Origin: Vineibacter terrae
Lineage (GTDB): Bacteria; Pseudomonadota; Alphaproteobacteria; Reyranellales; Reyranellaceae
Assembly (NCBI RefSeq): GCF_008039615.1
Contig: NZ_VDUZ01000033.1
Span: forward strand, 1 to 64,000
Direction of reading: 5' to 3'
Length of the DNA: 64,000 nt
Every line of letters starts with the position of its first letter. The first letter of the stretch is position 1. This document shows, in pieces, positions 13,457 through 34,485 of the stretch. A program made the translations under genes and the position numbers. A model generated the notes under the pieces. The model was not told the DNA's origin. It did not search any database and worked only from the letters and a program-made list of their open reading frames with translations.

Positions 13457-13458
13457 GG

Positions 13459-14799: not shown

Positions 14800-14800
14800 G

Positions 14801-15202: not shown

Positions 15203-15212
15203 CGCGCCAGCC

Positions 15213-15974
15213 TCAGTTGCCGCTGTTCGGGAACATGCGGGCGTTTCCGGGCTGATAGCCCGAGCCTGGCGTCAGGAAACGCCGACGCTGCTCGCGGCCC
15301 TGTTCGGCGGCGGCAGCCTGCTCGGCCGACTGCAATGCCTGCGCCCGACCGTTCGCCGCCACGACTGCGGTGAGGTCGGCGAGCTGCTGCGCCTGGAGCG
15401 CGAGGAGCTGGTTGCCGGCCTGCGTGGCTTGCAGCGCGCCGGTCGCGCCCTGGCTCTGACCGATCAGCGCCGACATCTGCGTGCGGTTGGTGTCGATGTT
15501 GCCGACGACACCCGCCTGCACCCGCATCGCGTCCTGCAGGCCACCGACCGTATTCTGCCAGCGCGAACGAGCGTCAGTGACGAGCTGCTGATCGCTCGCC
15601 GACATCGGGACGTTCCCGTATTTCTGCTGGAACATCTGGTCGATCTTCTGAACGTCGAAGGCGATGTTTTGCGCCTGATTGAGAAGCTGCTGGGTCCGCT
15701 GAACCGACTGCTGAAGCTGTTGCAGCGACGAGTACGGCAGGCTCGCAAGATTGCGAGCCTGGTTGATCAGCATCTGTGCTTCGTTCTGAAGCGAGGTGAT
15801 CTGGTTCGTGATCTGCTGGAGTGAGCGCGCGGCCGTCAACATGTTCTGCGCATAGTTCGACGGATCGAATACGATGATGGCGTGCGCGGGCGGCGTGAGC
15901 ATGGGCGCAAGCGCGACGGGAGCGATCAGCAGCGCGGCAGCAAAACGCGCTGCGCGGGAATTGCGCGGTTTCAT
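15213..15974 (-). CDS. trbJ: Conjugal transfer protein TrbJ (VirB5-like)
   Basis: A 253-residue secreted VirB5-family minor pilus component. The N-terminal signal peptide (about residues 1-32) ends near PPAHAI. The mature protein is a long, glutamine-rich helical bundle with heptad-like QQITNQITSLQNEAQMLINQ and LQQLQQSVQRTQQLLNQAQ segments. The start overlaps the trbE stop by four bases. Confidence 0.93.
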   Translation of the reverse strand: MKPRNSRAARFAAALLIAPVALAPMLTPPAHAIIVFDPSNYAQNMLTAARSLQQITNQITSLQNEAQMLINQARNLASLPYSSLQQLQQSVQRTQQLLNQAQNIAFDVQKIDQMFQQKYGNVPMSASDQQLVTDARSRWQNTVGGLQDAMRVQAGVVGNIDTNRTQMSALIGQSQGATGALQATQAGNQLLALQAQQLADLTAVVAANGRAQALQSAEQAAAAEQGREQRRRFLTPGSGYQPGNARMFPNSGN

Positions 15975-18409
15975 TGGGACGTCTCCTTGTTGGTGAGCGT
16001 GGGGATGAGATCGACGGCCCAGCCGACCTCACGATGATCGAGCCAGGCGGCGAGGAAGCCGTCGTGGCCGTGTTCGGCGACGATGCGGGCGATGGCCGCC
16101 TGGTCGGTCTTCGACGATGCGGCGCAAAGCGCGAGCGCGACATCGGACAGGCCGAGCTCGAACAGCCGGTTACCGCGGCGAGACTGGCAGTAGTAGTCGC
16201 GCTTCGGCATCGCCCGCGCGATGATCTCGATCTGGCGATCGTTGAGGCCGAAGCGCCGGTAGATCGCGGTGATCTGCGGCTCGATCGCGCGCTCGTTCGG
16301 CAAAAGGAGCCGCGTCTGGCAGCTCTCGATGATGGCGGGCGCGATTGCCGAGCCATCGATGTCGCTGAGCGATTGCGTGGCGAAGATGACGCTGGCGTTT
16401 TTCTTGCGCAACGTCTTCAGCCATTCGCGGAGCTGGCCGGCGAAGCCATCATCGTCCAGCGCCAGCCAGCCCTCATCGATGATGAGAAGAGTCGCCGAAC
16501 CGTCGAGCCGATCTTCGATGCGATGGAAGAGATAGGAGAGAACCGCGGGCGCCGCGCCGGTGCCGATCAGCCCTTCAGTCTCAAACGCCTGGACGGAGGC
16601 CGAGCCGAGATATTCACGCTCGGCGTCGAGCAGCCGGCCATAGGGACCGCCGACGCAATAGGGCCTGAGCGCCTGTTTGAGATCGTTCGACTGGAGCAGC
16701 ACGACCAGGCCGGTGATCGTGCGCTCCTCGACGGGCGCCGATGCGAGCGAGGTCAGCGCCGTCCAGATATGCTCCTTCACCTCGGGCGTGATCGCCACAC
16801 CCTCGCGGGTCAGGATCGACACAATCCAGTCGCCCGCCCAGGCGCGCTCGGGCACGTCGTGAACGCGAGCGAGCGGTTGAAGGCTGACGCTATCGGTCGC
16901 GCCGTCGCTGAGATCGCCGCCGAGGTCATGCCAATCGCCGCCCATGCCGAGCGCCGCCGCACGGATCGAGCCGCCGAAGTCGAAGGCGAAGACTTGGGCG
17001 CGGGCATAGCGTCGGAACTGCAGCGCCATCAGCGCCAGCAGGACCGATTTGCCAGCGCCGGTCGGGCCGACGATCAGCGTGTGGCCGACATCGCCGACGT
17101 GAAGCGAAAGCCGGAACGGGGTCGAGCCTTCAGTCTTGCCGAAGAGCAGAGGGGGCGCTGCAAAATGCTCGTCCCGGTCCGGCCCCGCCCACACCGCCGA
17201 CAGCGGGATCATGTGGGCGAGATTGAGCGTGGAGATCGGCGGCTGGCGGACGTTCGCATAGACGTGGCCGGGCAACGAGCCGAGCCAGGCGTCCACCGCG
17301 TTGATGGTCTCGGCCATGGCGGTGAAGTCGCGGCCTTGGATGACCTTCTCGACCAGCCGCAGCTTCTCGTCGGCTATGCGCGGATCATCATCCCACACCG
17401 TCACTGTCGCGGTGACGTAGGCCATGCCGGCATAATCGGCGCCGAGTTCCTGCAGCGCCATGTCGGCGTCGGCGGCCTTGTTCGCGGCATCGGTGTCCAC
17501 GAGGACGGACGCCTCGTTGGTCATCACCTCCTTGAGGATCGCGGCGATCGACTTGCGCTTGGCGAACCACTGCCGCCGAATCTTGGTGAGGAGCTTGGTG
17601 GCGTCGGTCTTGTCGAGCAGGATCGCGCGCGTCGACCAGCGATATGGAAATGCGAGACGGTTCAGCTCGTCGAGCAGGCCAGGCGTCGTCGCCGTCGGAA
17701 AGCCGGTGACTGTGAGGATGCGCAGATGCGACGCGCCAAGGCGCGGCTCAAGCCCGCCAGTGAGTGGCTGGTCGGCGAGCAGCGCGTCGAGATAGATCGG
17801 CGTTTCGGGGACGCGGACCCGATGCCGCTTCGTTGAGACGCAGCCGTGGAGATAGGTGAGCGTCTCCGCGTCATCGAGCCAGCGGCATTCCGGCATGAAG
17901 GCTTCGACCAGGCGCAGGATGCGATCGGTGCGATCGGCAAACCCGGCCATCATCTCGTTGGGGTCGACGCCCGACTTTTCCCGCCCCTCGTAGAGCCAGG
18001 ATTCTGCACGCGCGGCGTCTTCGGCCGGCGGCAGATAGGTGAAGGTCAGGAAATAGCTCGACTCGAAATGGGCGCCGGCTTCCTCGAAATCCGCCTTGCG
18101 CTCGGCATCGACCAGCGCCGAGGCGGGATCTGGAAAGCGGCTGTCGGGATAGAGGTTCGAGGCATGGCGCTGTGCCTCGACGAAGATCGCCCAGCCGGAG
18201 CCGAGACGACGGAAGGCATTGTTGAGCCGGCCGGCGACCGCGACCAGCTCGGCCGGGACGGCGCTGTCGAGGTCGGGGCCGCGAAACCGGGCGGTGCGTT
18301 GGAAGCTGCCGTCCTTATTGAGGACGATGCCGGCGCCCACCAGCGCGACCCAGGGCAGGAAGTCGGCGAGCCGGCTGTTGCGGTCGCGATATTCGACGAG
18401 GTTCATCAT
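15971..18409 (-). CDS. trbE: Conjugal transfer ATPase TrbE (VirB4-like)
   Basis: VirB4-family ATPase (812 residues) that powers pilus assembly and substrate transfer at the inner membrane. The start is the first of two adjacent ATGs (MMNLVEYRDRN); the 31 codons upstream in frame overlap trbD and are not family-like. The N-terminal CagE/TrbE domain covers about residues 1-420. The P-loop GPTGAGKS is at residues 448-455 and a Walker B TLLIIDEGW lies near residue 640. Length and motifs are normal. Confidence 0.95.
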   Translation of the reverse strand: MMNLVEYRDRNSRLADFLPWVALVGAGIVLNKDGSFQRTARFRGPDLDSAVPAELVAVAGRLNNAFRRLGSGWAIFVEAQRHASNLYPDSRFPDPASALVDAERKADFEEAGAHFESSYFLTFTYLPPAEDAARAESWLYEGREKSGVDPNEMMAGFADRTDRILRLVEAFMPECRWLDDAETLTYLHGCVSTKRHRVRVPETPIYLDALLADQPLTGGLEPRLGASHLRILTVTGFPTATTPGLLDELNRLAFPYRWSTRAILLDKTDATKLLTKIRRQWFAKRKSIAAILKEVMTNEASVLVDTDAANKAADADMALQELGADYAGMAYVTATVTVWDDDPRIADEKLRLVEKVIQGRDFTAMAETINAVDAWLGSLPGHVYANVRQPPISTLNLAHMIPLSAVWAGPDRDEHFAAPPLLFGKTEGSTPFRLSLHVGDVGHTLIVGPTGAGKSVLLALMALQFRRYARAQVFAFDFGGSIRAAALGMGGDWHDLGGDLSDGATDSVSLQPLARVHDVPERAWAGDWIVSILTREGVAITPEVKEHIWTALTSLASAPVEERTITGLVVLLQSNDLKQALRPYCVGGPYGRLLDAEREYLGSASVQAFETEGLIGTGAAPAVLSYLFHRIEDRLDGSATLLIIDEGWLALDDDGFAGQLREWLKTLRKKNASVIFATQSLSDIDGSAIAPAIIESCQTRLLLPNERAIEPQITAIYRRFGLNDRQIEIIARAMPKRDYYCQSRRGNRLFELGLSDVALALCAASSKTDQAAIARIVAEHGHDGFLAAWLDHREVGWAVDLIPTLTNKETSQ

Positions 18410-18423
18410 CGGCGCGCTCCCCC

Positions 18424-18705
18424 TCAAACCGTGAGGAGCGCGGGGACGCGCAGATGGCGGCGCACCACGTCGACGAAGAGCGGATCGCGTTTGGCCGCCC
18501 ACACCGCCGCGACATGACCGATCGCCCAGATGGCGATGCCGACCAGCCAGAGGCGAAGGCCGAGGCCGACGGCGCCAGCGAGTGTCCCGTTCATGATGGC
18601 GATAGCGCGCGGTGCCCCGCCGAGCAGGATCGGCTCGGTCAGCGCCCGGTGAACCGGGACCGTGTAACCCGGAACCTCGCCGCCCTGTTCGACACCGCCC
18701 GTCAT
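18424..18705 (-). CDS. trbD: Conjugal transfer protein TrbD (VirB3-like)
   Basis: A 93-residue VirB3-family inner-membrane protein. The sequence VPVHRALTEPILLGGAPR at the N-terminus is the family signature, followed by two hydrophobic helices (about residues 35-52 and 54-70). The open frame runs much further upstream, but that part is antisense-like overlap with trbC and trbB. The ATG at 18705 shares its A with the trbC stop codon, which fixes the start. Confidence 0.92.
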   Translation of the reverse strand: MTGGVEQGGEVPGYTVPVHRALTEPILLGGAPRAIAIMNGTLAGAVGLGLRLWLVGIAIWAIGHVAAVWAAKRDPLFVDVVRRHLRVPALLTV

Positions 18706-19037
18706 CAGACCAGCGCCCCGCCGCCGAACGAGAAGAACGACAGGAAGAAGCTCGACGCGGCGAAGGCGATCGAGAGTCCGAACACGATCTGGATCAGCCG
18801 TCGGAAGCCGCCGGACGTGTCGCCGAAAGCGAGCGTCAGGCCAGTGACGATGATGATGATCACCGCGATGATCTTGGCCACAGGGCCTTCGATCGACTGC
18901 AGGATCTGTTGCAGCGGTTGCTCCCACGGCATCGACGAGCCCGAGGCGTGGGCGGGCGCGGCCATCACTACCGACAGCGTGGCGACGGACACGGTCATGG
19001 CGAGGTGACGGCGCGCGAGGCGCAGGCGTTGGATCAC
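18705..19037 (-). CDS. trbC: Conjugal transfer protein TrbC (VirB2-like pilin)
   Basis: A 110-residue pilin precursor. It has a signal peptide (about residues 1-32, ending in APAHAS) and two hydrophobic helices (residues 52-72 and 83-104) separated by a short basic loop, as in VirB2/TrbC pilins. Its start overlaps the trbB stop by four bases. TrbC of IncP is processed and cyclised by the TraF peptidase; a TraF-like gene lies at 25.9 kb. Confidence 0.93.
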   Translation of the reverse strand: MIQRLRLARRHLAMTVSVATLSVVMAAPAHASGSSMPWEQPLQQILQSIEGPVAKIIAVIIIIVTGLTLAFGDTSGGFRRLIQIVFGLSIAFAASSFFLSFFSFGGGALV

Positions 19038-20050
19038 AGGCTTTCTCCTTCAGGGCTTCGGGTGAACAAGGTCGGGCCGCCGTCGCCCTCGATGACGGCC
19101 GGCGCGATGCGGTAGTCACCGTCGAGGCCGAGGCCCTCGACGCGCGCGAGTTCAGAGAGACGGCGAGCGGCGCCGCGGCCGGAGAGGACGGCAACGATGT
19201 CGATCGTCTCGGCGATCAGCGCGCGCGGGACGGTGACGACGGCTTCCTGGATGAGCTGCTCCATCCGCCGCAGCGCGCCGATCGCGCTGCCGGCGTGGAT
19301 CGTGCCGACGCCGCCGGGGTGGCCTGTGCCCCATGCCTTGAGCAGCTCCAGCGCCTCGGCTCCACGCACCTCGCCGACCGGAATGCGATCGGGGCGCAGG
19401 CGCAGCGAAGAGCGGACGAGATCGGAGAGCGAGGCGACGCCATCTTTGGTGCGCATCGCCACGAGGTTCGGCGCGGCGCATTGCAGCTCGCGCGTATCCT
19501 CTATGATGACGACGCGATCGGCGGTTTTCGCGACCTCGGCAAGCAGCGCGTTGGTGAGCGTGGTCTTGCCGGTGGATGTGCCGCCGGCGACGAGGATGTT
19601 GGCGCGAGAAGCCACGCCCTGGCGCAGCATCTCGGCCTGTCCGGTCGACATGATCCCGGCGTGGACATAGTCGTTGAGTGTGAACACGGCGACCGCCGGC
19701 TTGCGGATCGCGAAGGCCGGCGCTGCAACGACTGGTGGCAGCAGGCCCTCGAACCGCTCTCCCGTTTCGGGCAGCTCCGCCGACACCCGCGGCGCGCCCG
19801 CATGAACCTCGGCGCCGACGTGATGGGCGACCAGGCGAATGATGCGTTCACCGTCCGCCGCAGACAGCCGTTCGCCCGTATCGGCGAGCCCTTCCGACAG
19901 GCGGTCGATCCACAGCCGCCCATCGGGGTTGAGCATCACTTCAACGATGCTGGAGTCATCGAGGTAGCGGGCGATCGCCGGGCCGAGCGCAGTGCGCAGC
20001 ATCCGTGCGCCGCGCGCGAGACCTTCCGCATGTTGATGTGAAGCTGCCAC
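19034..20050 (-). CDS. trbB: Conjugal transfer ATPase TrbB (VirB11-like)
   Basis: A 338-residue hexameric secretion ATPase. The P-loop GGTSTGKT is at residues 156-163. An Asp box ([11 protein letters not shown]), a Walker B-like [18 protein letters not shown] and a His box ([14 protein letters not shown]) follow in the VirB11 order. It is first of the trb genes, with 167 bases separating it from the CopG gene upstream, so a promoter for the trb run may lie there. Confidence 0.95.
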
Positions 20051-20217
20051 ATGACCCCCGATTCCATCGGGGTCGAGACAGTCCTTCCCCGGACGGGGAT
20101 GATTAAAAGGGCCTGATTTTGGGCCGATTCAACAAAGATTCATCGGCGTAGTAGTCTGGCGTGCAAATACAGGAGAACGGCGGCGCAGGCTTTGTCTTGA
20201 ACGCCAGGCGCCAGACA
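20051..20217. promoter_or_regulatory. trb leader region with hairpins
   Basis: The only sizeable gap in the transfer run (167 bases) separates the CopG gene from trbB. It holds a hairpin with arms GACCCCCGAT and ATCGGGGTC (20053-20074, one bulged C) right before the trbB start. It also holds a spaced inverted repeat GTCTGGCG / CGCCAGAC near 20154 and 20216. These may be leader or operator elements of the trb genes; no consensus promoter stands out. Confidence 0.4.
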
Positions 20218-20670
20218 CTATTCGTCGCGTGCGAGCCCCATTCCTGTGTGTGAGTCGCTGAAGTCTTCAGCGATTTCCTGCCGCAGCTTCGGCCCCTTCG
20301 CTAACCTCCTCCCGAGGGCTGTCACGAATTGATCGTAGCGCTCGCCAGCTTTGGCACGGGCGGCTTGCACGGCAGGTTCAGGAAGTGCTGGCGTGGTGGC
20401 GACCCAGAAGCGCACGAATACGGCAAGCATCTCGACGGAGATGCCGACATCGCGTTCCATTCGCGTCATACGGCGATCGAGCTGGTCGAGGCGCTTGGTG
20501 ATGGCCGCTTCCTGCCGTTCGGCCGCATCGGGCGATAAGAAGGACTCGATGGCGGCCTCCGCGATCAGCGATCGGGAGTGATCGCGTCGCGCGGCATGTT
20601 CGGCGAGCCGACGCATCACGGCCGGATCGAGATAGACAGACAGGCGCTGTTTCTTCGCGGATTTCGTCAT
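20218..20670 (-). CDS. CopG family ribbon-helix-helix protein
   Basis: A 150-residue protein with an N-terminal ribbon-helix-helix domain (KQRLSVYLDPAVMRRLAEHAARR, then SLIAEAAIESFL) and a helical C-terminal part. I take the second ATG (MTKSAKK); an ATG four codons earlier overlaps the traG stop and is possible. CopG proteins at this place, between traG and trbB, are a constant of Tn4371-like transfer modules. They may regulate the trb genes or assist the relaxosome; the role is inferred. Confidence 0.85.
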   Translation of the reverse strand: MTKSAKKQRLSVYLDPAVMRRLAEHAARRDHSRSLIAEAAIESFLSPDAAERQEAAITKRLDQLDRRMTRMERDVGISVEMLAVFVRFWVATTPALPEPAVQAARAKAGERYDQFVTALGRRLAKGPKLRQEIAEDFSDSHTGMGLARDE

Positions 20671-20678
20671 AGCGACCC

Positions 20679-22664
20679 TCACAGCTCCATCCCATCACCG
20701 GGATCGAGCGAGACCTGACGGGCGACACCCTGCATCAGTCGGTTCATCCGGCTGTTGCGGGCGGCGTCATCCTCGGCCTCGTCGGCAAGGCCGATCTCGA
20801 ATTCATTCTCGATCGGCGCCTTCTTCTCGACAGGCTTCACGCGGCTCAATTCGGGCTGCTGGCGACGCTCGGACTCGGTCGGATCTTCGTCGCCCGTTTC
20901 CCTTCCCGGCTTCGCTTCGGCGATCACAGGCCGAGCCGGGAGCGGGAGGGCGATCCAATCGTCAACATGACCCTGTTTCGGTTGCGCGAGCGCCGGCGGC
21001 GGCAGGACACGCTCTTTGAAGCGGGCGTCCTCGTAGTAGCGCGCCTTCTTCGCTCGGATCGGTGGCGTCCCTGCGACCATTACGATCTCGTCGGTCGGCG
21101 GGAGCTGCATGACCTCGCCGGGTGTGAGTAACTGGCGGGCCGTCTCCGAGCGCGAGACCATAAGGTGCCCGAGCCAGGGCGACAGCCGATGCCCGGCATA
21201 GTTCCGCATCGCCTTCATCTCGGTGGCTGTGCCGAGCGCGTCTGACACGCGTTTGGCGGTTCGTTCGTCGTTCGTGGCGAAGCTCACGCGCACATGGCAG
21301 TTATCGAGGATCGAATTGTTCGCTCCGTAGGCTTTTTCGATCTGGTTGAGACTCTGGGCGATCAGGAAGCTCTTGAGGCCATAGCCCGCCATGAAGGCCA
21401 GCGCGGACTCGAAGAAGTCGAGCCGCCCAAGCGCCGGAAACTCGTCCAGCATCAACAGCAGCCGATGGCGGCCCGCCTTCGCCTGCAGATCCTCGGTCAG
21501 GCGTCGGCCGACCTGATTGAGGATCAAACGGATCAGCGGCTTCGTGCGGTTGATGTCGGAGGGCGGCACGACGAGGTAGAGCGTGGTCGGGTGCCTGCCG
21601 CCCACGATATCGGTGATGCGCCAGTCGCAGCGCCGCGTCACCTCGGCCACCACGGGATCACGGTAGAGGCCGAGGAACGACATGGCGGTGCTCAGCACGC
21701 CCGACCGCTCATTGTCGCTCTTGTTGAGCAGCTCGCGCGCCGCGCTAGCGATGACGGGATGCGGGCCGGCTTCACCGAGATGTGCCGTCTTCATCATCGC
21801 CGCGAGGGTGGACTCAATCGGGCGCTTCGGGTCCGACAGAAACGCCGCGACACCAGCGAGCGTCTTGTCCTCCTCGGCATAGAGGACATGGAGGATGGCG
21901 CCGACCAGTAGCGCGTGGCTGGTCTTTTCCCAGTGGTTGCGCTTCTCCAATGAGCCTTCGGGATCGACCAGGATGTCGGCGATGTTCTGAACGTCACGGA
22001 CTTCCCATTCGCCGCGGCGCACCTCGAGCAGCGGATTGTAGGCCGACGATTTGGCGTTGGTCGGATCGAACAGCAGCACCCGGCCATGCTTGGCGCGGAA
22101 GCCGGCGGTGAGCTGCCAGTTCTCCCCCTTGATGTCGTGGACGATGGCCGAGCCGGGCCAGGTCAACAGCGTCGGCACCACCAGTCCGACGCCCTTGCCG
22201 CTGCGGGTCGGCGCGAAGCACAGCACATGCTCCGGCCCGTCGTGGCGGAGATAGTCGCGATCATATCGGCCGAGGACGACGCCATCGGCGCCGAGCAGAC
22301 CGGCGGCCTGCACCTCCTGCCGTTCGGCCCATCGCGCCGAGCCATAGGTCTCCACCTTCTTGGCTTCGCGCGCCCGCCAGACCGACATGCCGATGGCGAC
22401 AGCGATCGAGATGAAGCCGCCCGACGCTGCAATGTAAGCGCCCTCGACAAAGATCGCCGGCGCATAGGCATCGAAGCCGTACCACCACCAGAAAAATGAG
22501 GGCGGCAGATAGAAGGGAAACCCGAACAGCCGGAACCATGGTTGCCCCAGCTCGGGCTGGAATGCCAGCCGCCAGGCCACCCACTCGGTCGCGCCCCAGG
22601 TCGTGACCAGCACGATCGCGAAGACGGCGAGAATCTGGCCCCAGAGGATTTTCGTAGCGGACAT
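20679..22664 (-). CDS. traG: Type IV coupling protein TraG (VirD4-like)
   Basis: A 661-residue coupling ATPase that links the relaxase-DNA complex to the secretion channel. Two N-terminal membrane helices (about residues 8-28 and 65-90) precede the cytoplasmic motor. Its P-loop PTRSGKGVG and the nearby VHDIKGENW are typical TraG motifs, and a Walker B LLMLDEFPALGRL lies in the middle. The start MSATKIL at 22664 is chosen because upstream in-frame sequence overlaps the relaxase gene and is unlike the family. The C-terminal 100 residues are acidic and variable. Confidence 0.95.
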   Translation of the reverse strand: MSATKILWGQILAVFAIVLVTTWGATEWVAWRLAFQPELGQPWFRLFGFPFYLPPSFFWWWYGFDAYAPAIFVEGAYIAASGGFISIAVAIGMSVWRAREAKKVETYGSARWAERQEVQAAGLLGADGVVLGRYDRDYLRHDGPEHVLCFAPTRSGKGVGLVVPTLLTWPGSAIVHDIKGENWQLTAGFRAKHGRVLLFDPTNAKSSAYNPLLEVRRGEWEVRDVQNIADILVDPEGSLEKRNHWEKTSHALLVGAILHVLYAEEDKTLAGVAAFLSDPKRPIESTLAAMMKTAHLGEAGPHPVIASAARELLNKSDNERSGVLSTAMSFLGLYRDPVVAEVTRRCDWRITDIVGGRHPTTLYLVVPPSDINRTKPLIRLILNQVGRRLTEDLQAKAGRHRLLLMLDEFPALGRLDFFESALAFMAGYGLKSFLIAQSLNQIEKAYGANNSILDNCHVRVSFATNDERTAKRVSDALGTATEMKAMRNYAGHRLSPWLGHLMVSRSETARQLLTPGEVMQLPPTDEIVMVAGTPPIRAKKARYYEDARFKERVLPPPALAQPKQGHVDDWIALPLPARPVIAEAKPGRETGDEDPTESERRQQPELSRVKPVEKKAPIENEFEIGLADEAEDDAARNSRMNRLMQGVARQVSLDPGDGMEL

Positions 22665-22689
22665 AGCGGTTAAGTCTTTCTGCGAGGGA

Positions 22690-24429
22690 TCAGAGGCCGA
22701 GGCTGCGCTTGCGGCCGAAGCTCCAGTCGATGCCGCCGTCATCGCGGGCGACGCCGGAGACGTGCTTGCCGAGCTGCTTTTCGAGGGAGGGCGTCCACGG
22801 CACAAGCTGGAAGCCGAGGCCGTCGTCGAGCATGGCGAACCGGCCCGAGGCGAGCGTGAAGCGCTGACGGTAGGAGCCGGCGACGTATTCGCCGCTGGCC
22901 GCGCGATTGAACGGCTGGCCGGTCTCGGCGGCGAGCTTGTCGCCGAGCGCCTCCAGCTCGCGGCGGCGCAGCGTGTCGATCAGATTGCGGGTGAAGGTAA
23001 CACGCTGGCCATGACGCTCGCCGAAGCCTTGTCCGACTAGGTGATCGGCCCGGCGCTCCAACGCCTGTCGAACCTCAGCGCCGAAGCCGCCCTCGGACAG
23101 CGCAGCCGGCTCGCGGGCGATGTTCTGCCGGTCGAGCCAGGTTGCGCCTGACGCGATGACCTGGCGGTCGATATCGAGATCGGAGCGGATGGCGATCGCC
23201 ACGCGCCGCTGCCCTTGAGCGTCTTCGAACCTGCGCAGCTCGACGATCGAGCCGGGCGCGCTGTCGCCGGCCGCAGCGAGGTCGGGGAGCTTGATGTGAT
23301 GGGTGCGGCCATCGACACCATCGACCACGGCATAGGCCGTGCCCTTCAGCTCGTCGTCGAGGCCGCGATCGACCAGCCGACCGATGATCGGCGTGTCGAG
23401 ACTCTCTGCCGCGAGCACATAGCTGGCCGAGCCGCGCTCGATGCCGCGTTCCGTCAGCGCGCGGTGCATCCGCTTGATGATGTCACCGCGCTCGCCGAGC
23501 TCGCGCAGCGTCACCTCGGTTCCGCCGTCGATCATCCATTGGCCGGGGCCGACCTGCTCGGCGAGGCCAAGGGTTTCCAGCTTGCGAAGCCGCCCAACCT
23601 TCAGGGCGTGATATTCGTCGGGCCGGGTGCTCGGATCAGGCGCCATGTCAATGACGCCGGCCTCGCGGCCGTCGCGGACGAGCTGCCGGTCGAGCTGGGT
23701 CCAGCGCTCCGCCTCGACCTGGCGCTCCAGATTGCGACGGATGTCGAGGTCGGTGCGCGGCCCCAATTCCTGTGTGACCAGATCGGCTGCGCGGGCGCGC
23801 ATCCCTTCCTTGATATAATCGCGCGCGATGACAAGGTCCTGCCCGTCATCGGCGCGGCCGCGCAGGATGATGTGGACGTGCGGGTTGTCGGTGTTCCAGT
23901 GATCGACCGCGGCCCAATCGAGCTTGGTGCCGAGATCCTTTTCCATCTGGGCCATCAGGTCGCGTGCGAAGGATTTGAGGTCGGCCATGTCGACGGCGTC
24001 TTCGGGCGAGACGATGAAGCGGAAGTGATGCCTGTCGTCCTGGCAGCGCTCGGCGAAGCCGCGGCCATCGACGTCATCGGTCTCCGGCCCGAACAGCCGG
24101 GCTTTCTCCCCGTCGCGGGTCACGCCCTCGCGGCGCAGATAGCTCAGATGGGCGGCAAGCGGCGCGGCGCGCGCGTGATGGCGAACGAGCCTGGTCTTGA
24201 TGACGACGATGCGCGATCGGCCCGTCAGCAGACGATTGGCGCGCACGCTCGCCGTGCGGCCGCGCCCGAAGGTCGAGCGGTTGCCGGAGCTGATCCGGCC
24301 GGTGCGAGAGATACGGGCACCGGCCTTCTGCGCGGCGGCGAGCGCCTGCGCGATGAAGGGTCGGGCGCGCTGTGCGTTGGATGAGCGGATGCGACCAGGC
24401 CGGATGCGGAAATTGTCCTCGCCGCTCAT
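22690..24429 (-). CDS. VirD2-type relaxase (DUF3363)
   Basis: Relaxase of 579 residues that should nick oriT and pilot the strand into the recipient. It has the HLSYLRREG segment carrying the likely catalytic Tyr97, a HHFRFIVSPED strand at 134-144, and the metal-binding pattern DHWNTDNPHVHIILRG with His177, His184 and His186. The C-terminal half matches the DUF3363 extension of RlxS-like relaxases in alphaproteobacterial ICEs. The start MSGEDNF at 24429 is chosen; the longer frame upstream runs into the repeat-rich region that I propose as oriT. Confidence 0.93.
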   Translation of the reverse strand: MSGEDNFRIRPGRIRSSNAQRARPFIAQALAAAQKAGARISRTGRISSGNRSTFGRGRTASVRANRLLTGRSRIVVIKTRLVRHHARAAPLAAHLSYLRREGVTRDGEKARLFGPETDDVDGRGFAERCQDDRHHFRFIVSPEDAVDMADLKSFARDLMAQMEKDLGTKLDWAAVDHWNTDNPHVHIILRGRADDGQDLVIARDYIKEGMRARAADLVTQELGPRTDLDIRRNLERQVEAERWTQLDRQLVRDGREAGVIDMAPDPSTRPDEYHALKVGRLRKLETLGLAEQVGPGQWMIDGGTEVTLRELGERGDIIKRMHRALTERGIERGSASYVLAAESLDTPIIGRLVDRGLDDELKGTAYAVVDGVDGRTHHIKLPDLAAAGDSAPGSIVELRRFEDAQGQRRVAIAIRSDLDIDRQVIASGATWLDRQNIAREPAALSEGGFGAEVRQALERRADHLVGQGFGERHGQRVTFTRNLIDTLRRRELEALGDKLAAETGQPFNRAASGEYVAGSYRQRFTLASGRFAMLDDGLGFQLVPWTPSLEKQLGKHVSGVARDDGGIDWSFGRKRSLGL

Positions 24430-24673
24430 GGCTGAGAGCCCGCACATCGCGCCAAGCGCATGAAATCGCGGAGGAACAGACGTCGCCGCGAGGTGCGCGG
24501 AAATCCCGCACCTCGCGAAAGCGGGCCATAACCTATTGAAACAGAACAACCGACCGACGCCGCACCTCGCGGCTTTTTATCTCGCCATCGTGCGGTTGTG
24601 GTGCCTGCCTCCACCTTCCACGCACGCCATGACACGCCGGAGGCCGCTATCGTGCGATCGGGAACCGTGCCGC
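24430..24673. other. Candidate origin of transfer (oriT)
   Basis: A 244-base non-coding gap between the relaxase and the lytic transglycosylase. It contains a perfect inverted repeat CGCGAGGTGCG / CGCACCTCGCG (24487-24497 and 24507-24517, 9-base loop). The same 11-mer CGCACCTCGCG recurs in direct orientation at 24561-24571, and an AT-richer stretch (CATAACCTATTGAAACAG) lies between the copies. Inverted plus direct repeats beside the relaxase gene are the usual make-up of an oriT. No nic site can be assigned from the sequence alone. Confidence 0.5.
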
Positions 24674-25447
24674 TCATGGCGCATTCCTTCCGCCCGAGCG
24701 CGGAACAAACAGCCCATCCGACTGCGGCTCGATGGCGGAGACGTCGCGCACGGATGATGCCGTCATCGTGGCATCGGAAGCGCGCTCACCCGGCACGGGA
24801 TCGGCGGCCGGTCTGCGCTCGGGCTGCGCGATGAACAGCGGCGCGCGCGTCCAGGCGAGCGGATCGACCGCCGCGACCACGATGGACCTGGCCGCATCGC
24901 CACCGTCCACGGACGGCGCGACGATGGCGACATAGGCGCGCGTTTCTGCGGGCAGCCCACGGCCCTTCAGCGAGTCCTCGTAACGACCAGGACCGGCATT
25001 GTAGGCCGCGATCCAGCCGGGCGATCCGTAGCGATCGAACAACTCGCGGATATAGCCGGCGCCGGCGATGATGTTGTCATGCGGATCGTAAGGATCAGCG
25101 CCGAGACGGTAGCGAAGGCGCAAGCCTGCCCAGGTCGGCGGCATGATCTGCATCAGGCCCATCGCGCCCCTCGGCGAAAGGGCGCGTGGATCGCCTGCAC
25201 TTTCGGCACGCATCACCGCCCTGATCCATGCGATCGGAATGCCGTAGCGCCGCGAAGCCTCGGCGATATGATCGCCATACGGATCGCGTGGCGACGGTTG
25301 AGCGGCGCCCAAGTCCTGCGCCATCGTGATCGCCGGCATGATGCTCGCGAGGGTGAGGCCGGAAAGGAGAAGGAGAGCCATGCGCCGAGCAGCGCAGCGC
25401 GGCCCGGACGCAATCGAACGGCTCGTCGGTTGACGAGAGCCAAGCAT
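24674..25447 (-). CDS. Lytic transglycosylase (VirB1-like)
   Basis: A 257-residue periplasmic SLT-type muramidase that opens peptidoglycan for the secretion channel. The signal peptide covers residues ~23-44 (MALLLLSGLTLASI to TMAQ). The catalytic Glu82 lies in AVMRAESAGDPRALSPRGAMGLMQIMP, followed by the AYNAGPGRY motif. An internal ATG at codon 23 is an equally good start. It lies between relaxase and DUF736 in the mobilisation cluster. Confidence 0.93.
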   Translation of the reverse strand: MLGSRQPTSRSIASGPRCAARRMALLLLSGLTLASIMPAITMAQDLGAAQPSPRDPYGDHIAEASRRYGIPIAWIRAVMRAESAGDPRALSPRGAMGLMQIMPPTWAGLRLRYRLGADPYDPHDNIIAGAGYIRELFDRYGSPGWIAAYNAGPGRYEDSLKGRGLPAETRAYVAIVAPSVDGGDAARSIVVAAVDPLAWTRAPLFIAQPERRPAADPVPGERASDATMTASSVRDVSAIEPQSDGLFVPRSGGRNAP

Positions 25448-25450
25448 CGG

Positions 25451-25798
25451 TCAGTCCTTCTCGCCGCGATCGCGCGGACGCGACCAATGCAGCGAACAGG
25501 CCGAGCCGGCATCGTCGTCGCGGAACAGGTTGGCGCGGATCGGGTGCGGGAATGTTGGATCGTCGATCAGCAGCGCGACGTATTCGCCGGCCTTCTCGCC
25601 GGAGCGTTTCCATCCGGCGCCGATCTCCGCGCCCGGCTCATTGTTCATGCCGTCGAAGACATGGACGCGATACTGCGGTGCGTTCTCAACCTCGGTCGGT
25701 TCGGTTGCGATGATTATGACGTCCTGGTTCAAAACCAGCGTCGTCAGATGCCCGACGAAGCCGGTCTCGTCGTGCGTGAACTCGCCAATCTGGGGCAT
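25451..25798 (-). CDS. DUF736 protein, copy 1
   Basis: A 115-residue cytosolic protein of the DUF736 family, small beta-rich proteins found almost only on plasmids and ICEs of alphaproteobacteria, function unknown. Landmarks are MPQIGEFTHDETGFVGHL at the start and SGEKAGEYVALLIDDPTFPHPIRANLF near the end. The start is the ATG at 25798 rather than one 15 codons earlier, because family proteins begin at this methionine. A second, diverged copy lies at 35137-35460. Confidence 0.92.
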   Translation of the reverse strand: MPQIGEFTHDETGFVGHLTTLVLNQDVIIIATEPTEVENAPQYRVHVFDGMNNEPGAEIGAGWKRSGEKAGEYVALLIDDPTFPHPIRANLFRDDDAGSACSLHWSRPRDRGEKD

Positions 25799-25867
25799 GT
25801 CAGTCTCCTTCGCGGTGGGATTGGGATAGCCATCGGCGAGCACCGCTCCCGCCGAATGGGAAGGCGG

Positions 25868-26413
25868 TCAGCGTGTCGGCGCACGCCATTCGAAGCGGCC
25901 GGTGCCGTCTTCATCAGTCCACAGCGGGACGGCACGGCCGATGATCTGGTCGGTCGAGATCAAGCCGAAGTAGCGGCCGTCGAGGCTGTCGCGGACCTGC
26001 CAGTTCATGAGGAAGACTTCGCCAGTCTGGACCCGGCGGCAGCCTTGCCAGACGGGAAGATTGCGGCCTGCGCGATCGCGCTCCAGTGCCGCACCGACCT
26101 CCACACCATCGACGGTGATAGTGAGGTTCGAACGGCAAACGGTCTGTCCGGAGACGGCGAGGATGCGCTTCATCAGCGGCACGCCCTTGGGCAGATAGCC
26201 GCGCTCGGCGAGGAAGGTCGCGAGCGGCTCGGGCGCGTCGACTGCAACGAGATCGGTGATGTCGAATGGCCCGTCGAAGTCGATCGAATAGAGGCCGATC
26301 GGCGCGCTCGCTGAAGCGTTCCAGATCAGCTTGATCGGCATCGGCGTAAGGCCGGGATAGCCAACGCCAAGCGCTGCGAGCGTCGTCACGAGGAGAAGCA
26401 CAGCGCGGCTCAC
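25868..26413 (-). CDS. traF: S26 family signal peptidase (TraF-like)
   Basis: A 181-residue serine peptidase of the TraF/LepB type that in IncP plasmids matures and cyclises the TrbC pilin. It has one N-terminal membrane helix (residues 4-20), the catalytic Ser36 in SAPIGLY, and the general-base Lys82 in PLMKRILAVSGQ. The start is GTG at 26413, overlapping the DUF2840 stop by four bases (GTGA). A much longer frame upstream is only the shadow of DUF2840. Confidence 0.92.
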   Translation of the reverse strand: MSRAVLLLVTTLAALGVGYPGLTPMPIKLIWNASASAPIGLYSIDFDGPFDITDLVAVDAPEPLATFLAERGYLPKGVPLMKRILAVSGQTVCRSNLTITVDGVEVGAALERDRAGRNLPVWQGCRRVQTGEVFLMNWQVRDSLDGRYFGLISTDQIIGRAVPLWTDEDGTGRFEWRAPTR

Positions 26414-26931
26414 GGCTCGGCCCTCCGGCGTGCCAAGAACGCGCGATGATGGTCGAGCGTGTAGGTGCGCGGCTCCTGTCCGGCGGTCAGCCGGTTGTGG
26501 ACGTGACGCCAATGATCGGGCGAGACCGCTTCGGGATCGATGCCGATGTGCTCGATGGCGTCGATCGCCTGCAGCACGCGCTCGACCCTGGGCCAGCTCT
26601 CGATCTTCAGCAGGATGTCGCCGCCAGGACGGACGAACGGCAGTGTCTGGTAGGCCTCGCCGTGCGCAACCGAGCACACGACGTCGATGCGCGAGATGAT
26701 CGTGCCGAAGTCGTTCGAGGCCCAGCGGACGAAGGCGAAGACGGCGCCAGGGCGGAAGGATAGGACGCGCCGTCGACGGTCGAGAATCTGTTCGTGGGCG
26801 TGCGAACCGAAGCGGATCCAGTTCTCGATTTTCTTCTCGACCCACGTCAGCTCGACATGGGTGAGATTGTCCTGCGGAAGCGCGCTTGGCGTCGGGCCGC
26901 CGCGCACGCGGGGGGCCGCGGCGCCGGTCAT
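26410..26931 (-). CDS. DUF2840 domain protein
   Basis: A 173-residue cytosolic protein of the ICE-specific DUF2840 family, function unknown. Landmarks are LTHVELTWVEKKIENWIRFG near the N-terminus, FVRWASNDFGTIISRIDVV in the middle, and a basic C-terminus. It overlaps the RHH gene upstream and the signal peptidase downstream by four bases each, so the three genes are translationally coupled. Confidence 0.9.
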   Translation of the reverse strand: MTGAAAPRVRGGPTPSALPQDNLTHVELTWVEKKIENWIRFGSHAHEQILDRRRRVLSFRPGAVFAFVRWASNDFGTIISRIDVVCSVAHGEAYQTLPFVRPGGDILLKIESWPRVERVLQAIDAIEHIGIDPEAVSPDHWRHVHNRLTAGQEPRTYTLDHHRAFLARRRAEP

Positions 26932-27182
26932 GAAGGGTCTCCTTCAATCGGTGGGAATTCCCGCGCGAGCAGATCGCGCAGCATGTCGGCGACGGTGACG
27001 CCGCGCCGGAAGGCGGCGATCTTGATCCGTCCGCGCAGGTCGGGCGTGACGTCGATGGTCATGCGGGCGGTGAAGGCTTCACCGTCCGCCGCGCGCGCCG
27101 CGGGGGCATCGGCGGCCTTGATCCAGGCGTCAGGATTGCTCGGGCGCGCCGCGAAGCCGCGCCGTTGGGATCGCTCGCTCAT
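26928..27182 (-). CDS. Ribbon-helix-helix partition-associated protein
   Basis: An 84-residue protein with a disordered N-terminus and a C-terminal ribbon-helix-helix region (ARMTIDVTPDLRGRIKIAAFRRGVTVADMLRDLLAREF). By size, fold and position directly after parA it resembles ParG-type centromere-binding partners of ParA ATPases. It is coupled to parA by a four-base overlap. Partition function is inferred. Confidence 0.8.
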   Translation of the reverse strand: MSERSQRRGFAARPSNPDAWIKAADAPAARAADGEAFTARMTIDVTPDLRGRIKIAAFRRGVTVADMLRDLLAREFPPIEGDPS

Positions 27183-27817
27183 GGCGCGATCCTTTCGATC
27201 TCGGTGACGAGCGCCGCGATCTCGCGCGCGGCGGGTCCGTTGTCGTCGATCTCGAAGGCGAGCCGGCCCGATTGCGCGGCGTCGGCGTAGATGACGCGCT
27301 GTCCGATCGCCGTGCGCAGCACTGGCGGATCGTGATCGGCGAGCGTCTCGGCCGTCTCGCGGGCGATCACGGTGCGAGCACCGCAGCGATTGAGGATGAA
27401 GCGGGCGCGCAGCTCCGGCCGATAGATGCGCGCCTCCGACAGGAGCGCCAGCATCTCGGCGGATGCCCAGCCGTCGAGCGGCGACGGCTGGACTGGGATC
27501 AACACCAGGTCGGCGGCGAGCAGCGCCGAGCGCATCAGCCCGGCGACACGCGGCGGCCCGTCGATCACCACATGATCGACATCGCGCGCCAGCTCGGGCG
27601 CCTCACGATGGAGCGTGTCGCGCGCCAGGCCGACGACGCCGAACAGGCGCGGCGCGTGCTCGCGGGCGCGTTGCTGCGACCAGTCGAGCGCCGAGCCCTG
27701 GGGATCGGCATCGACCAGCGTGACACGCTTTCCCTTACCGGCCCATTCGCCGGCGAGATGCAGCGCTAGCGTCGTCTTGCCGACGCCGCCCTTCTGATTG
27801 AGGAGGGCCACGATCAT
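27179..27817 (-). CDS. parA: ParA family partition ATPase
   Basis: A 212-residue Walker-type ATPase of the short ParA/ParF class. The deviant P-loop KGGVGKTT is at residues 9-16, with the DADPQGSALDWSQQR and HVVIDGPPR motifs following. It segregates plasmid or excised-element copies together with a small centromere-binding protein, here probably the RHH gene just downstream. Four-base overlaps join it to repA upstream and to the RHH gene downstream. Confidence 0.95.
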   Translation of the reverse strand: MIVALLNQKGGVGKTTLALHLAGEWAGKGKRVTLVDADPQGSALDWSQQRAREHAPRLFGVVGLARDTLHREAPELARDVDHVVIDGPPRVAGLMRSALLAADLVLIPVQPSPLDGWASAEMLALLSEARIYRPELRARFILNRCGARTVIARETAETLADHDPPVLRTAIGQRVIYADAAQSGRLAFEIDDNGPAAREIAALVTEIERIAP

Positions 27818-28974
27818 TGGCGGCCTCCCGAGCGTGGGCCGAAGGGAAGCCGCGGAGCGTCGGAGGCCCCGTTTCTCGCTGTGTCGGTGTTGGTGAGAGC
27901 GGTGCTGCTTGTGCGCCGTTTGCCAGCGGCGCTGAGCGCGTTCGCGGCCTGCCGGACGAGGTTTTCCACCTGGCGCGCGCGCTCTTCAAAGTTAGATTCT
28001 CTGTTAGATTCTAAGTTAGGGGCGCGATTTTCGGTTTTGCTGTCGTGGGTTAGGCCGTATTTCGGTTCCCGTTGGCACGAGGGGCCGGTTCCTGATGGCA
28101 CGCGCTTTCGGGTTCCCGATGGCACGAAGCCTTTCACAGCTTTTCCACAGGGCGGCGTCCGCTCGAAAGCGAGCAACGTCCGGCCGCCGGCCTCGATCTC
28201 TAGGAACAGCGTATAGCCGGGCAGCGGCTGGCGACGGATGATGTCGCGCAGCTCGAAGGCGAACCGTTTGAACGGCGAGAGCGCACCGGATTTCTGATGG
28301 AGGTGGCGGAAGTCGAACCGCCAGCCATTGCGCTGGCGCCCGCCGTGCTTGCGCACCAGGCGGTAGAGCCAGCGATCGAGTCCGCCCGTGAGATCGAAAT
28401 AGGCCCGGTCGATCGTCAGCACGAGCGCATCGTCGAGAACGGCCTGATAGAACCAGTCGGGCACGATCATCTCGATCCCGTTCGGCTTGCCGTTGCGGTT
28501 GGTGCGCTCCTTCCACTCGTTGATCCACGAGAAGCGATGACGCCGGCTCTCGGCGGGCTGGCGGATCGAGGTGCAGACCGTCGTGGATTGCAGGCGGTCG
28601 AGCGCCGCCTTCAGGCGCTGATAGTCGCGCAAGGACGTGCCGCGTCCGATGAATTTGAGGATTTCATAGGGGGTCGCGACCATCAGGCGTGAGGTGCGCA
28701 AGCCTGCGTCACGCGCCTCGACGATCTGGCTCGCCGCCCAGATCAGGATGTCGGCGTCCCAGATGGTCGCCATGCCGTGATCGGGCACGGCTTCCACTCG
28801 GATCGACACATCACCGGCGGCGAAGTCGATCGGCGCGACGCGGTGGGATTTGGAGAGGGAGAAAAACGGATAGGCCATGAGATCCTGTGCGTCTCGGGCT
28901 GCGAACTCACCGGGGAGCGCACGGAACAGATCGAGCTGCCCGCACTCCGAGAGGGATTGGTGTCGCGCCGCCAT
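27814..28974 (-). CDS. repA: Replication initiator protein A
   Basis: A 386-residue initiator of the RPA family of alphaproteobacterial plasmids and ICEs. The conserved region runs from LMAYPFFSLSKSHRVAPIDF (about residue 32) through SRLMVATPYEILKFIGRGTS and KSGALSPFKRFAFELRDII to about residue 265. The C-terminal 120 residues are low-complexity and probably unfolded. Three 16-base repeats and a DnaA-box-like sequence are embedded in the DNA for this tail (separate entry). It is coupled to parA by a four-base overlap, so replication and partition are co-expressed. Confidence 0.93.
   Translation of the reverse strand: MAARHQSLSECGQLDLFRALPGEFAARDAQDLMAYPFFSLSKSHRVAPIDFAAGDVSIRVEAVPDHGMATIWDADILIWAASQIVEARDAGLRTSRLMVATPYEILKFIGRGTSLRDYQRLKAALDRLQSTTVCTSIRQPAESRRHRFSWINEWKERTNRNGKPNGIEMIVPDWFYQAVLDDALVLTIDRAYFDLTGGLDRWLYRLVRKHGGRQRNGWRFDFRHLHQKSGALSPFKRFAFELRDIIRRQPLPGYTLFLEIEAGGRTLLAFERTPPCGKAVKGFVPSGTRKRVPSGTGPSCQREPKYGLTHDSKTENRAPNLESNRESNFEERARQVENLVRQAANALSAAGKRRTSSTALTNTDTARNGASDAPRLPFGPRSGGRQ
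28064..28126. repeat. Three iteron-like direct repeats inside repA
   Basis: GGTTCCCGTTGGCACG (28064), GGTTCCTGATGGCACG (28087) and GGTTCCCGATGGCACG (28111) are 16-base direct repeats spaced 23 and 24 bases apart, about two helical turns. The first spacing is not a multiple of three, so the repeats are read in different frames and are conserved as DNA rather than protein. TTTTCCACA, one base from the DnaA box consensus, lies at 28141-28149. A short AT-richer run with repeated GTTAGATTCT is nearby, around 27990-28015. Confidence 0.65.
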
Positions 28975-28992: not shown

Positions 28993-29274
28993 TCAGCGCG
29001 CGTATCGTCCGGCATGTGCCGGTGGCGAAGGCGTATGGCGCTTGGCCGGAAGCACGCTGCCGCGCGGATCGGAGGTGGAGGTGACGGCGCCGCGCTCGGC
29101 CCAGGCCTCGAGATCGTCGACCGCATAGACGACGCGGCCGCCGAGCTTGCGATAGGCCGGACCTGTTCCGTAGGTCCGATGCTTTTCCAGGGTGCGGGCC
29201 GACAGGCTGAGGAATTCGGCGGCTTCCTTGGTGCGCAGGTAGCGCGGCGGGAGAACGGCGAGATCAGGTCGCAT
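28993..29274 (-). CDS. Excisionase-like helix-turn-helix protein (RdfS-like)
   Basis: A 93-residue AlpA/HTH_17 type DNA-binding protein. The HTH is RYLRTKEAAEFLSLSARTLEKHRTYGTGPAYRKLGGRVVYAVDDLEAWAE (about residues 11-60). Small HTH proteins at this place act as recombination directionality factors (RdfS) in ICEMlSym-type elements (family knowledge). It is the first gene of the run repA-parA-traF-mob and lies directly downstream of the frameshifted activator genes, which is where RdfS is expected. The MRPDLAV start is preferred; upstream in-frame sequence is not family-like. Confidence 0.82.
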   Translation of the reverse strand: MRPDLAVLPPRYLRTKEAAEFLSLSARTLEKHRTYGTGPAYRKLGGRVVYAVDDLEAWAERGAVTSTSDPRGSVLPAKRHTPSPPAHAGRYAR

Positions 29275-29413
29275 GGGAGGGCCTCCGTGGGTTCGTTGGG
29301 GCCGCCGGGAAGCGGCGGGTAACGAAGGCCACGTTGGCGAAGCAGGACCGGCGAGATGCAGGGCGAATTCAGGGGGGCCTAAATTCGCCCACCAAGAGTC
29401 GAAGCGAAGCCGG

Positions 29414-29989
29414 CTAGAATTGCCGGCGATGACGAAGCAGCGCGCGATACCCACCCACGATCATTGCGCGGGCATCCCGGAGCAGGGATTTGATGGCGTG
29501 GCGGGCGGAGGATGCCTGCCACTCGTCGCGGTCGAGCGGGCCAACACGAAATACGATCTGCGCGATCTCCTGCTGCGTGGCTCCAGCGCGATGACCGTCG
29601 AACGCTTGCAGCATCCGGCACAGTCGCGCGCGCTGCTGCCGCGTCAGGCGGGTGTCGGGAGGTATGGCACGGCCGTGGAGAGCGGCGAGCAAGCGGGCGA
29701 CGGATTCGAGCCGGTCGAAGCCCTCCAGGCCGAGCGGGATGAAGGCGCCGAGAGGTTTGGCGGGTCGTGTGGCGGAGGGATGAACAAGCCCTACGCGCTG
29801 GCCATTGCCGAGATCGAAAACCAGATAGGTCTCGCCGCCGGTGTCGACGCTGACGGCGGCGTCGATCGTCGGTTGCGGGTCAGCGCGTGCGGACGGAATA
29901 TCGGGAGGCGCGCCAAGAACGATGGCGCTTGTGTCTTTCTGGGGAAGCCAGATCACTCGCGCTTCGGGTGGTGCCTGCATCGGGTCCAC
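29414..29989 (-). CDS. DUF2285 part of an FseA-like activator (-frame after +1 shift)
   Basis: The frame encodes 191 residues whose C-terminal part is a DUF2285 (RovC-like) DNA-binding domain (FDRLESVARLLAALHG onward, ending RAMIVGGYRALLRHRRQF). It begins with GTG at 29989 but has no convincing ribosome site. It fits exactly onto the DUF6499 frame upstream by skipping one base after the CCC codon at 29991-29993, giving a 257-residue protein. In ICEMlSym the excision activator FseA is made from two overlapping frames by programmed +1 frameshifting, so I read these two frames as one gene expressed that way. A simple frameshift mutation is the alternative. Confidence 0.85.
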   Translation of the reverse strand: MDPMQAPPEARVIWLPQKDTSAIVLGAPPDIPSARADPQPTIDAAVSVDTGGETYLVFDLGNGQRVGLVHPSATRPAKPLGAFIPLGLEGFDRLESVARLLAALHGRAIPPDTRLTRQQRARLCRMLQAFDGHRAGATQQEIAQIVFRVGPLDRDEWQASSARHAIKSLLRDARAMIVGGYRALLRHRRQF

Positions 29990-30188
29990 CGGGAAATCGC
30001 AACCCCCAGCGCTGCCCGATTTCGTCGGTCAGCGCGTGCGGTTCGTCTTTGCTGGCGGCCAGTGCCTGAAAATCGCTGTCATAGGATTCGTTGCGACGCA
30101 GCCATTCCCACGCGATGTCGGACGCGGTCATGTCCGCGACATGCGCATAGCGTACCGAGGAGCGCCAGCCGGAAGCATCTGGTGTCAT
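29880..30188 (-). CDS. DUF6499 part of an FseA-like activator (upstream frame)
   Basis: A 102-residue frame whose first 66 residues are the DUF6499 'transcriptional regulator' domain (YAHVADMTASDIAWEWLRRN, then LTDEIGQRWGLRFP). Residues 67-102 are low-complexity and arginine/serine-rich, as expected for an out-of-frame tail. Family proteins continue after RFP with a V-D-P sequence, and the +1 frame here supplies V-D-P-M immediately. The shift site reads TTT CCC G GTG, with the CCC proline codon as residue 66; a proline tRNA can slip forward onto CCG. The two frames together form the full-length DUF6499-DUF2285 protein. Confidence 0.85.
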   Translation of the reverse strand: MTPDASGWRSSVRYAHVADMTASDIAWEWLRRNESYDSDFQALAASKDEPHALTDEIGQRWGLRFPGGPDAGTTRSASDLASPERHKRHRSWRASRYSVRTR

Positions 30189-30300: not shown

Positions 30301-30567
30301 TCACTGCGCCGAGCGCACCAACTCGCGATAGCCGTGCTCGGTCATCCACTGCGCGCGGGCGAGATGCGTGTCATGGACCTGGCGGCACCGTTGCGGCTCA
30401 CGCTCCGGATCGAGGCCAAAGAGTACCTGGACGGCTTCGCGCCAGTCGGCGCCATCGCGCGAGGAGTCGAGCAGGCGCAGATAGAGGACCATATGCTCGC
30501 GGTCATAGGCCGTAAGCGTTTGGCTGATCGGTGGCGCGTCCAGAAACGGCGGCATCGCGTGTCCCAT
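30301..30567 (-). CDS. Free-standing DUF2285-type protein (QseM-like antiactivator)
   Basis: An 88-residue protein with one domain that aligns over its whole core with the DUF2285 domain of the neighbouring activator. Shared positions include an L-T start, D..R.GA, E..Q..F, and the terminal A..M...GYR.L. Single-domain DUF2285 proteins of this size act as the antiactivator QseM in ICEMlSym, where they bind and block FseA and TraR (family knowledge). The start may be ATG 30567 or the ATG at 30555; neither has a strong ribosome site. A half-site GACTATA lies right before the start. Confidence 0.7.
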   Translation of the reverse strand: MGHAMPPFLDAPPISQTLTAYDREHMVLYLRLLDSSRDGADWREAVQVLFGLDPEREPQRCRQVHDTHLARAQWMTEHGYRELVRSAQ

Positions 30568-30668: not shown

Positions 30669-30923
30669 CTAGCGCTTTGCTGGTCGATCATCCCGCTCAT
30701 GGAGCAACAGCACCCCTTCGCCCTTGTCGGTGGAGAGCAGGACGATGCCGGCTGCCTCGAATGCCCTGCGGACCTGATCGCGTGTCGATTCGTACACCTC
30801 CATTCCATTCTCGGATTCGAGGCGCTTGAGCGCGGTCAGCGATGTGCGGGCCTTGTCAGCGAGCGTCTCCTGTGTCCACCCCAGCAACGCGCGCGCGGCC
30901 CGTGATTGTCGGGCGGTGATCAT
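30669..30923 (-). CDS. XRE family regulator (QseC-like)
   Basis: An 84-residue single-domain HTH_3 protein (SRAARALLGWTQETLADKARTSLTALKRLES). The C-terminal strand-rich part (VYESTRDQVRRAFEAAGIVLLST) is common to small XRE regulators of ICEs. A 20-base perfect palindrome overlaps its start codon and another lies 44 bases upstream, which points to autoregulation. By position upstream of the single-domain DUF2285 gene it resembles QseC, which sets the level of the antiactivator QseM. In ICEMlSym those genes are divergent, here they are co-directional, so the match is by family and context only. Confidence 0.82.
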   Translation of the reverse strand: MITARQSRAARALLGWTQETLADKARTSLTALKRLESENGMEVYESTRDQVRRAFEAAGIVLLSTDKGEGVLLLHERDDRPAKR

Positions 30924-33670: not shown

Positions 33671-33671
33671 C

Positions 33672-33965: not shown

Positions 33966-33986
33966 GGGATCAGTCTCCTAGTGATG

Positions 33987-34412: not shown

Positions 34413-34454
34413 ATCTAACCTCTCTTCACCTTGCCGAAATCCCAAGTATGCCGT

Positions 34455-34485
34455 AGCATGCGGTCTGTAGTAACTACAGGGTCAA
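34455..34485 (-). promoter_or_regulatory. merT promoter with MerR operator
   Basis: On the minus strand a TTGACC -35 element (34480-34485) and a CATGCT -10-like element (34455-34460) are separated by 19 bases. That over-long spacer is the mark of MerR-controlled promoters. Inside the spacer lies the perfect dyad CTGTAG-TAA-CTACAG (34465-34479). MerR bound here would twist the DNA to align the elements when Hg(II) is present. Confidence 0.85.

Follow-up and report, generated by a model that had tools for sequence, protein, structure and literature searches.

A split FseA-type activator gene of Vineibacter terrae and a candidate UUU-pyrimidine site for its probable programmed +1 frameshifting

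FseA-type switches and the Vineibacter locus

According to Jowsey et al. 2023 (PMC10359603), the activator FseA of the Mesorhizobium element ICEMlSym-R7A is made by programmed +1 ribosomal frameshifting, which joins a DUF6499 frame (msi172) to a DUF2285 frame (msi171), and ∼61% of 4709 FseA homologues are split at a conserved +1 site. In the same paper, an RBS-like UGGGGG at the WGL codons was noted and stalling was suggested for it, inverted hexamers 16 bp apart were placed before rdfS, and RovC of Yersinia, which activates a type VI secretion system, was described as distantly related to FseA. A second point of comparison is prfB (release factor 2), for which a review describes an SD-like stretch upstream of a site where the P-site tRNA re-pairs in the +1 frame.

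The window (the whole stretch of DNA analyzed, 64,000 nt of the Vineibacter terrae genome) was found to contain the following features of this kind.

29880..30188, minus strand: fseA frame 1, with the DUF6499 domain (msi172-like; PF20109, Trans_reg_dom, E=1.6e-22) and the motif AWEWLRRN; 102 codons
29414..29989, minus strand: fseA frame 2 (+1), with the middle part and the DUF2285 domain (msi171-like; PF10074, RovC_DNA-bd, E=3.1e-32)
29993..30008, minus strand: candidate frameshift cassette TGG GGG TTG CGA TTT C (16 nt, TGGGGGTTGCGATTTC), invariant in nine distinct close sequences

The overlapping frames reported in the first-pass annotation (30188-29880 and 29989-29414) were thus recovered as open reading frames with Pfam matches, and they stand in a +1 relation. 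In the reading of frame 1, the junction is TGG GGG TTG CGA TTT CCC GGT GGA. When one extra base was advanced at this point, translation across the junction gave a protein of 257 residues containing RWGLRFPVDPMQ, in agreement with the joined product proposed before; production of the activator very probably requires the ribosome to pass over one base. Features of the FseA family are present in the product: AWEWLRRN resembles the ‘AWEFLRRN’ of the family in PMC10359603, and the C-terminal DUF2285 part carries a net charge of +9 over 107 residues. The feature of the split subset, +1 frames at a conserved site adjoining WGL/UGGGGG, is found as well. The joined product showed weak sequence similarity to its distant homologue RovC (PDB 6xz5; E=8e-4 for the whole, with neither stretch significant alone), and NCBIfam gave no name to the fseA, qseM or rdfS genes here. 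The split gene is a further example of the known FseA-type switch.

Frame relation among relatives

The relation between the two domains was surveyed with profiles of DUF6499 and DUF2285 in 79 loci from genome contigs, 11 plasmid loci and further genomes; loci L001–L003, which are the window itself, were left out of the counts. Among 215 DUF6499 hits (214 loci, window included), the DUF2285 partner was in the +1 frame in 173, in the +2 frame in one and in the same frame in 34, while for seven no DUF2285 partner was found; in two loci of this survey DUF6499 itself was not detected. Since random indels would yield +1 and +2 about equally, the 173:1 excess is not attributable to chance. All 79 genome loci and all 11 plasmid loci were split, and these are not unbiased samples, because the genome loci had been retrieved with the DUF2285 frame of the window. 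In the family searches, where each locus was counted under the search that first brought it in, the ratio of split to fused genes was 41:3 among the relatives, 16:3 in the class, and 25:28 plus one +2 pair in the phylum. This pattern agrees in kind with the published proportion.

Twelve close relatives, all split like the window, aligned with it over 775 nt with zero gaps (nine distinct sequences including the window). In this alignment, variable columns were counted by codon position (1/2/3): before the junction, read in frame 1, they number 16/15/40, and after it, read in frame 2, 67/44/132. The best frame change-point was nt 182 (2-lnL interval 147–200; the TTT begins at 192, 0-based), and the change-point model was better than one without a shift by 144.7 lnL. 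A broken gene, whether by an inactivating indel or by an assembly error such as an extra G, had been left as an alternative in the first-pass annotation. Fused forms do exist, and one locus (L148) has its frames in +2 and without overlap, as a real break would show; however, the window shares its gap-free frame change, with codon-position bias in both frames, with 12 close relatives, and +1 outnumbers +2 by 173 to one. We therefore reject this alternative as hardly credible. The programmed +1 frameshift of FseA type proposed earlier was supported by the same excess, by the gap-free relatives and by the published pattern, and close homologues are not all of the single-frame kind.

The family can do without the shift, since 34 relatives are fused in a single frame. 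A quick tree was built from 135 genes; some of its branches are long, and parts of it are poorly supported. On this tree, the split or fused state needs 10 changes (three of them forced by starred branches) as compared with 29.8 in shuffles, and the window belongs to a starred group of 31 rows, every one of them split. For the comparison of sites, genes without a recognizable W were left out (6 of 173 split pairs and 10 of 34 fused pairs), and near-copies were merged by clustering the DUF6499 part at 85% identity, by which 167 split genes were reduced to 102 representatives and 24 fused genes to 21. In 15 of the 21 fused representatives, a D-P pair lies at the distance from W that is found in the +1 product.

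It could also be supposed that two separate proteins are made, with the DUF2285 part initiated at its own start and acting apart from DUF6499. The window has a GTG at 29989 with an SD-like stretch upstream, and 53 of the 102 representatives have some ATG, GTG or TTG in frame 2 no more than 15 codons from the junction, but the other 49 have no such codon. The GTG start given for frame 2 is mechanical, with a GTG at the aligned place in 8 of 102 representatives, and domain order and spacing are kept in the fused relatives. Independent initiation was rejected as very unlikely, and a single product joined by frameshifting is preferred.

Two loci of the survey are of separate interest. L148, the sole +2 pair, is a candidate true pseudogene. 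L005, which is fused and stands beside the split L014, is nested among split genes and retains TTT C at the old junction; the frameshift may have been lost there recently.

The junction and its candidate slip codon

Schwartz and Curran (1997) reportedly found UUU-pyrimidine sites to be shift-prone through forward slip of Phe-tRNA in test constructs. The site analyzed here is a natural and conserved one, with UUU followed by C or T. The cassette consists of the SD-like stretch, rare codons and TTT (29996-29994) as the candidate slip codon; in the favored reading, the ribosome would skip base 29993. By nominal codon statistics, which ignore shared descent, TTT is present at the junction in 96 of the 102 split representatives (159 of 167 split pairs before clustering); over the rest of these genes it makes up 100 of 371 Phe codons, and at the aligned place it stands in 1 of 24 fused genes. 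A pyrimidine follows the junction TTT in all 96 representatives (C in 91, T in 5; 154 C and 5 T before clustering), whereas an in-frame TTT at other places in the genes is followed by C or T in 51 of 99 cases.

The skip had first been assigned to a G after the proline codon CCC (29991-29993). The window alone cannot separate the two slip codons, because skipping the C after TTT or the G after CCC yields the identical protein. The product of the earlier proposal therefore stands, and the alignment of the junction across many loci, suggested with it, showed the two +1 frames to be kept (173 of 215); CCC as the slip codon was not upheld, nor is the CCC-G site conserved. The codon after TTT is CCC in 46 of the 102 representatives, the window's codon too, and CCT in 8 more, as slippage of Pro-tRNA at CCC-G would allow, but it is CGC, where Arg-tRNA could not re-pair, in 38 and something else in 10, and the feature common to the sites is TTT followed by a pyrimidine. 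Slippage in the P site from UUU to UUY predicts a conserved TTT-Y, while CCC slippage leaves the CGC group unexplained; as far as sequence comparison can tell, Phe-tRNA slipping from UUU to UUC fits better, and a slip of Pro-tRNA is considered clearly unlikely. The triplet ‘UUU’ does not occur in the available passages of PMC10359603, and UUU was not named as the slip codon of fseA in the literature passages searched, the scope of which excludes the primary paper (Ramsay 2015 PNAS).

At the aligned place, TTT is missing from six of the 102 representatives (TGT in two, and CTA, CTT, ACC and GTT). Split genes without TTT at the site include L018 (CTA), L021 (CTT), L128 and L180 (both TGT) and L181 (GTT), some of which are without good +1 re-pairing. 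In L135, an extra codon follows WGL and the TTT C is displaced one codon later, so that the position of the slip codon seems tied to the junction, not to the W.

The codons upstream of TTT are also biased in the split representatives: GGG accounts for 70 of 97 Gly codons (background 120/947), TTG for 56 of 95 Leu codons (background 207/1728) and CGA for 58 of 66 Arg codons (background 255/2458). Mean anti-SD pairing at the W codon is -8.4 kcal/mol in split genes versus -5.7 kcal/mol in fused genes, and about -0.5 to -3.3 kcal/mol away from the W codon. Downstream RNA structure was rejected as a stimulator, with mean z of -0.35 to -0.18 near the site as compared with -0.32 and -0.07 in controls. 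The exact 18-mer TGGGGGTTGCGATTTCSC occurred four times in 385 genomes of the class, each time at a DUF6499 hit; a looser 18-mer pattern matched in 9 of the 385 genomes, with five of nine places outside DUF6499 hits.

The run of five G at 30003-30007 suggests another route to the same frame, namely transcriptional slippage in place of ribosomal frameshifting. Such slippage would yield WGCDF, whereas 19 of the 21 fused representatives read WGL; in 28 of 102 the Gly codon ends in a base other than G, and UUU-Y would be left unconstrained. This route was rejected as very improbable, and a ribosomal shift is preferred.

The site would work like that of prfB without being a member of the prfB type: the slip codon is UUU, not CUU, and the A site holds a sense codon, not the UGA stop. 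The SD-like stretch lies 6 nt from the slip codon, as compared with 3 nt in prfB. CGA is presumably decoded through an inosine-adenine pair and may act here as a weak E-site codon. A wider proposal, tentative and rather doubtful, is that the fseA site forms a +1 cassette of three parts, prfB-like without the stop, in which anti-SD pairing, the weak E-site CGA and re-pairing of P-site UUU-Y as UUY would act together at a slowly read A-site sense codon. If this were true, the shift rate would depend on the state of the host tRNAs, and transfer of the element would be gated by host translation, not by quorum sensing.

Neighboring genes and the putative circuit

The genes and the repeat around the split gene were identified as follows.

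30669..30923, minus strand: small HTH gene that precedes qseM (HTH_3 at 21.9 bits, under the curated cutoff of 23)
30301..30567, minus strand: qseM-like gene for a short DUF2285 protein of 88 aa (PF10074, E=3.5e-8; PDB 7uqt QseM, E=1.8e-20)
29362..29389, minus strand: FseA-box-like inverted repeat GGCGAA-N16-TTCGCC between fseA and rdfS, the sole exact match in the window
28993..29274, minus strand: rdfS-like gene (HTH_17; PDB 8dgl RdfS, E=1.1e-9), with its ATG at 29274
27814..28974, minus strand: repA (RPA; PF10134, E=1.1e-91)
22690..27817, minus strand: parA and genes for an RHH protein, DUF2840, a TraF-like S26 peptidase, a lytic transglycosylase and a relaxase (rlxS-like), by Pfam
10471..22742, minus strand: genes for a coupling protein and trb-type mating-pair formation (TraG/T4SS-DNA_transf, T2SSE (TrbB-like), TrbE/VirB4, TrbK, TrbL, VirB8, CagX, TrbI)

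Judged by these matches, a QseM-type antiactivator gene is present, as is an rdfS homologue with a putative FseA box upstream. Both have counterparts in ICEMlSym-R7A, as do the inverted hexamers 16 bp apart; unlike in that element, qseM here immediately precedes fseA in the same orientation, and the box lies 88–93 nt before the ATG of rdfS as compared with 62–67 for the published hexamer (PMC10359603). The QseM homologue has a net charge of -3, versus +9 for the DUF2285 part of FseA, and the small HTH gene is possibly qseC-like.

Of the 173 split loci, 95 have a repeat similar to that of the window behind fseA (67 of the 79 from genome contigs, 7 of the 11 from plasmids, 20 of 82 others, and the window itself), versus 16 of 519 coding controls; the pattern was derived from the window's own repeat, and the count is therefore one of recurrence, not of binding. 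With up to two mismatches allowed, the pattern matched 15 times in the window versus 8.3 expected. The consensus count over the split loci was used in place of the best-match inverted-repeat score, which was weakly informative (6 or 7 of 7 pairs after fseA in 36 of 102, as compared with 13% in mononucleotide shuffles and 24% in coding controls). A consensus search of 29200-29420 gave no sigma-70-type promoter.

Past the repeat, the order is rdfS-repA-parA, followed by the transfer genes, and the closest matches in a database search lie on plasmid records. In contrast to ICEMlSym-R7A, Phage_integrase (PF00589) and Resolvase (PF00239) gave zero hits on the contig (C33, from a draft assembly of 135 contigs), and the AHL receptor family PF03472 (TraR-type) gave none in the Vineibacter genome, while a control was matched in E. 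coli. The earlier suggestion that the element times its excision by frameshifting is thus not established: hits of these two recombinase families are lacking on the contig, the nearest matches are on plasmid records, and transfer genes follow. Control of conjugative transfer through the rdfS-led region is the safer reading of the output; quorum sensing and excision are unsupported here and would be possible with parts on other contigs or in other families.

Other genes of the window lie beside this region. An ORF of 759 aa (31146-33425, minus strand) encodes, in a single frame, a MerB (alkylmercury lyase) domain and after it a part resembling mercuric reductase (Pyr_redox), with MerT and MerR genes adjoining (33422-34967); by its domain content, it is a MerB-MerA fusion in mercury cargo adjoining the regulators. 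Beyond the transfer region, an ArdC-type antirestriction gene (47608-48558) and an AbiEi/AbiEii-like toxin-antitoxin pair (51577-53156) were found, both on the minus strand.

From the observed frame geometry, conservation, site composition and gene context, we infer the following account, with a probability of about 0.87 for the whole: an fseA homologue, expressed by programmed +1 frameshifting with a UUU slip, whose product would activate the box, rdfS and the transfer genes under restraint by QseM. Ribosomes would translate DUF6499 and arrive at TGG GGG TTG CGA TTT C, where the SD-like stretch and the poorly used codons may slow or strain them. The P-site Phe-tRNA would slip from UUU to UUC, and translation would continue in the +1 frame through DUF2285, giving a DNA-binding activator of 257 residues, while ribosomes that do not slip would yield the DUF6499 fragment only. 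The activator is predicted to bind the inverted repeat at 29389-29362 and to induce rdfS together with the transfer genes downstream, and the QseM homologue encoded upstream would restrain it.

Such split genes are again shown to escape annotation: 5 of the 11 plasmid stretches carry annotation, and the DUF6499 frame is unannotated in two of these five. The locus adds to the family a compact qseM-fseA-box-rdfS unit from a genome in which no AHL receptor was found, and the proposed mechanism names a slip codon, UUU-Y, that is testable by synonymous change.
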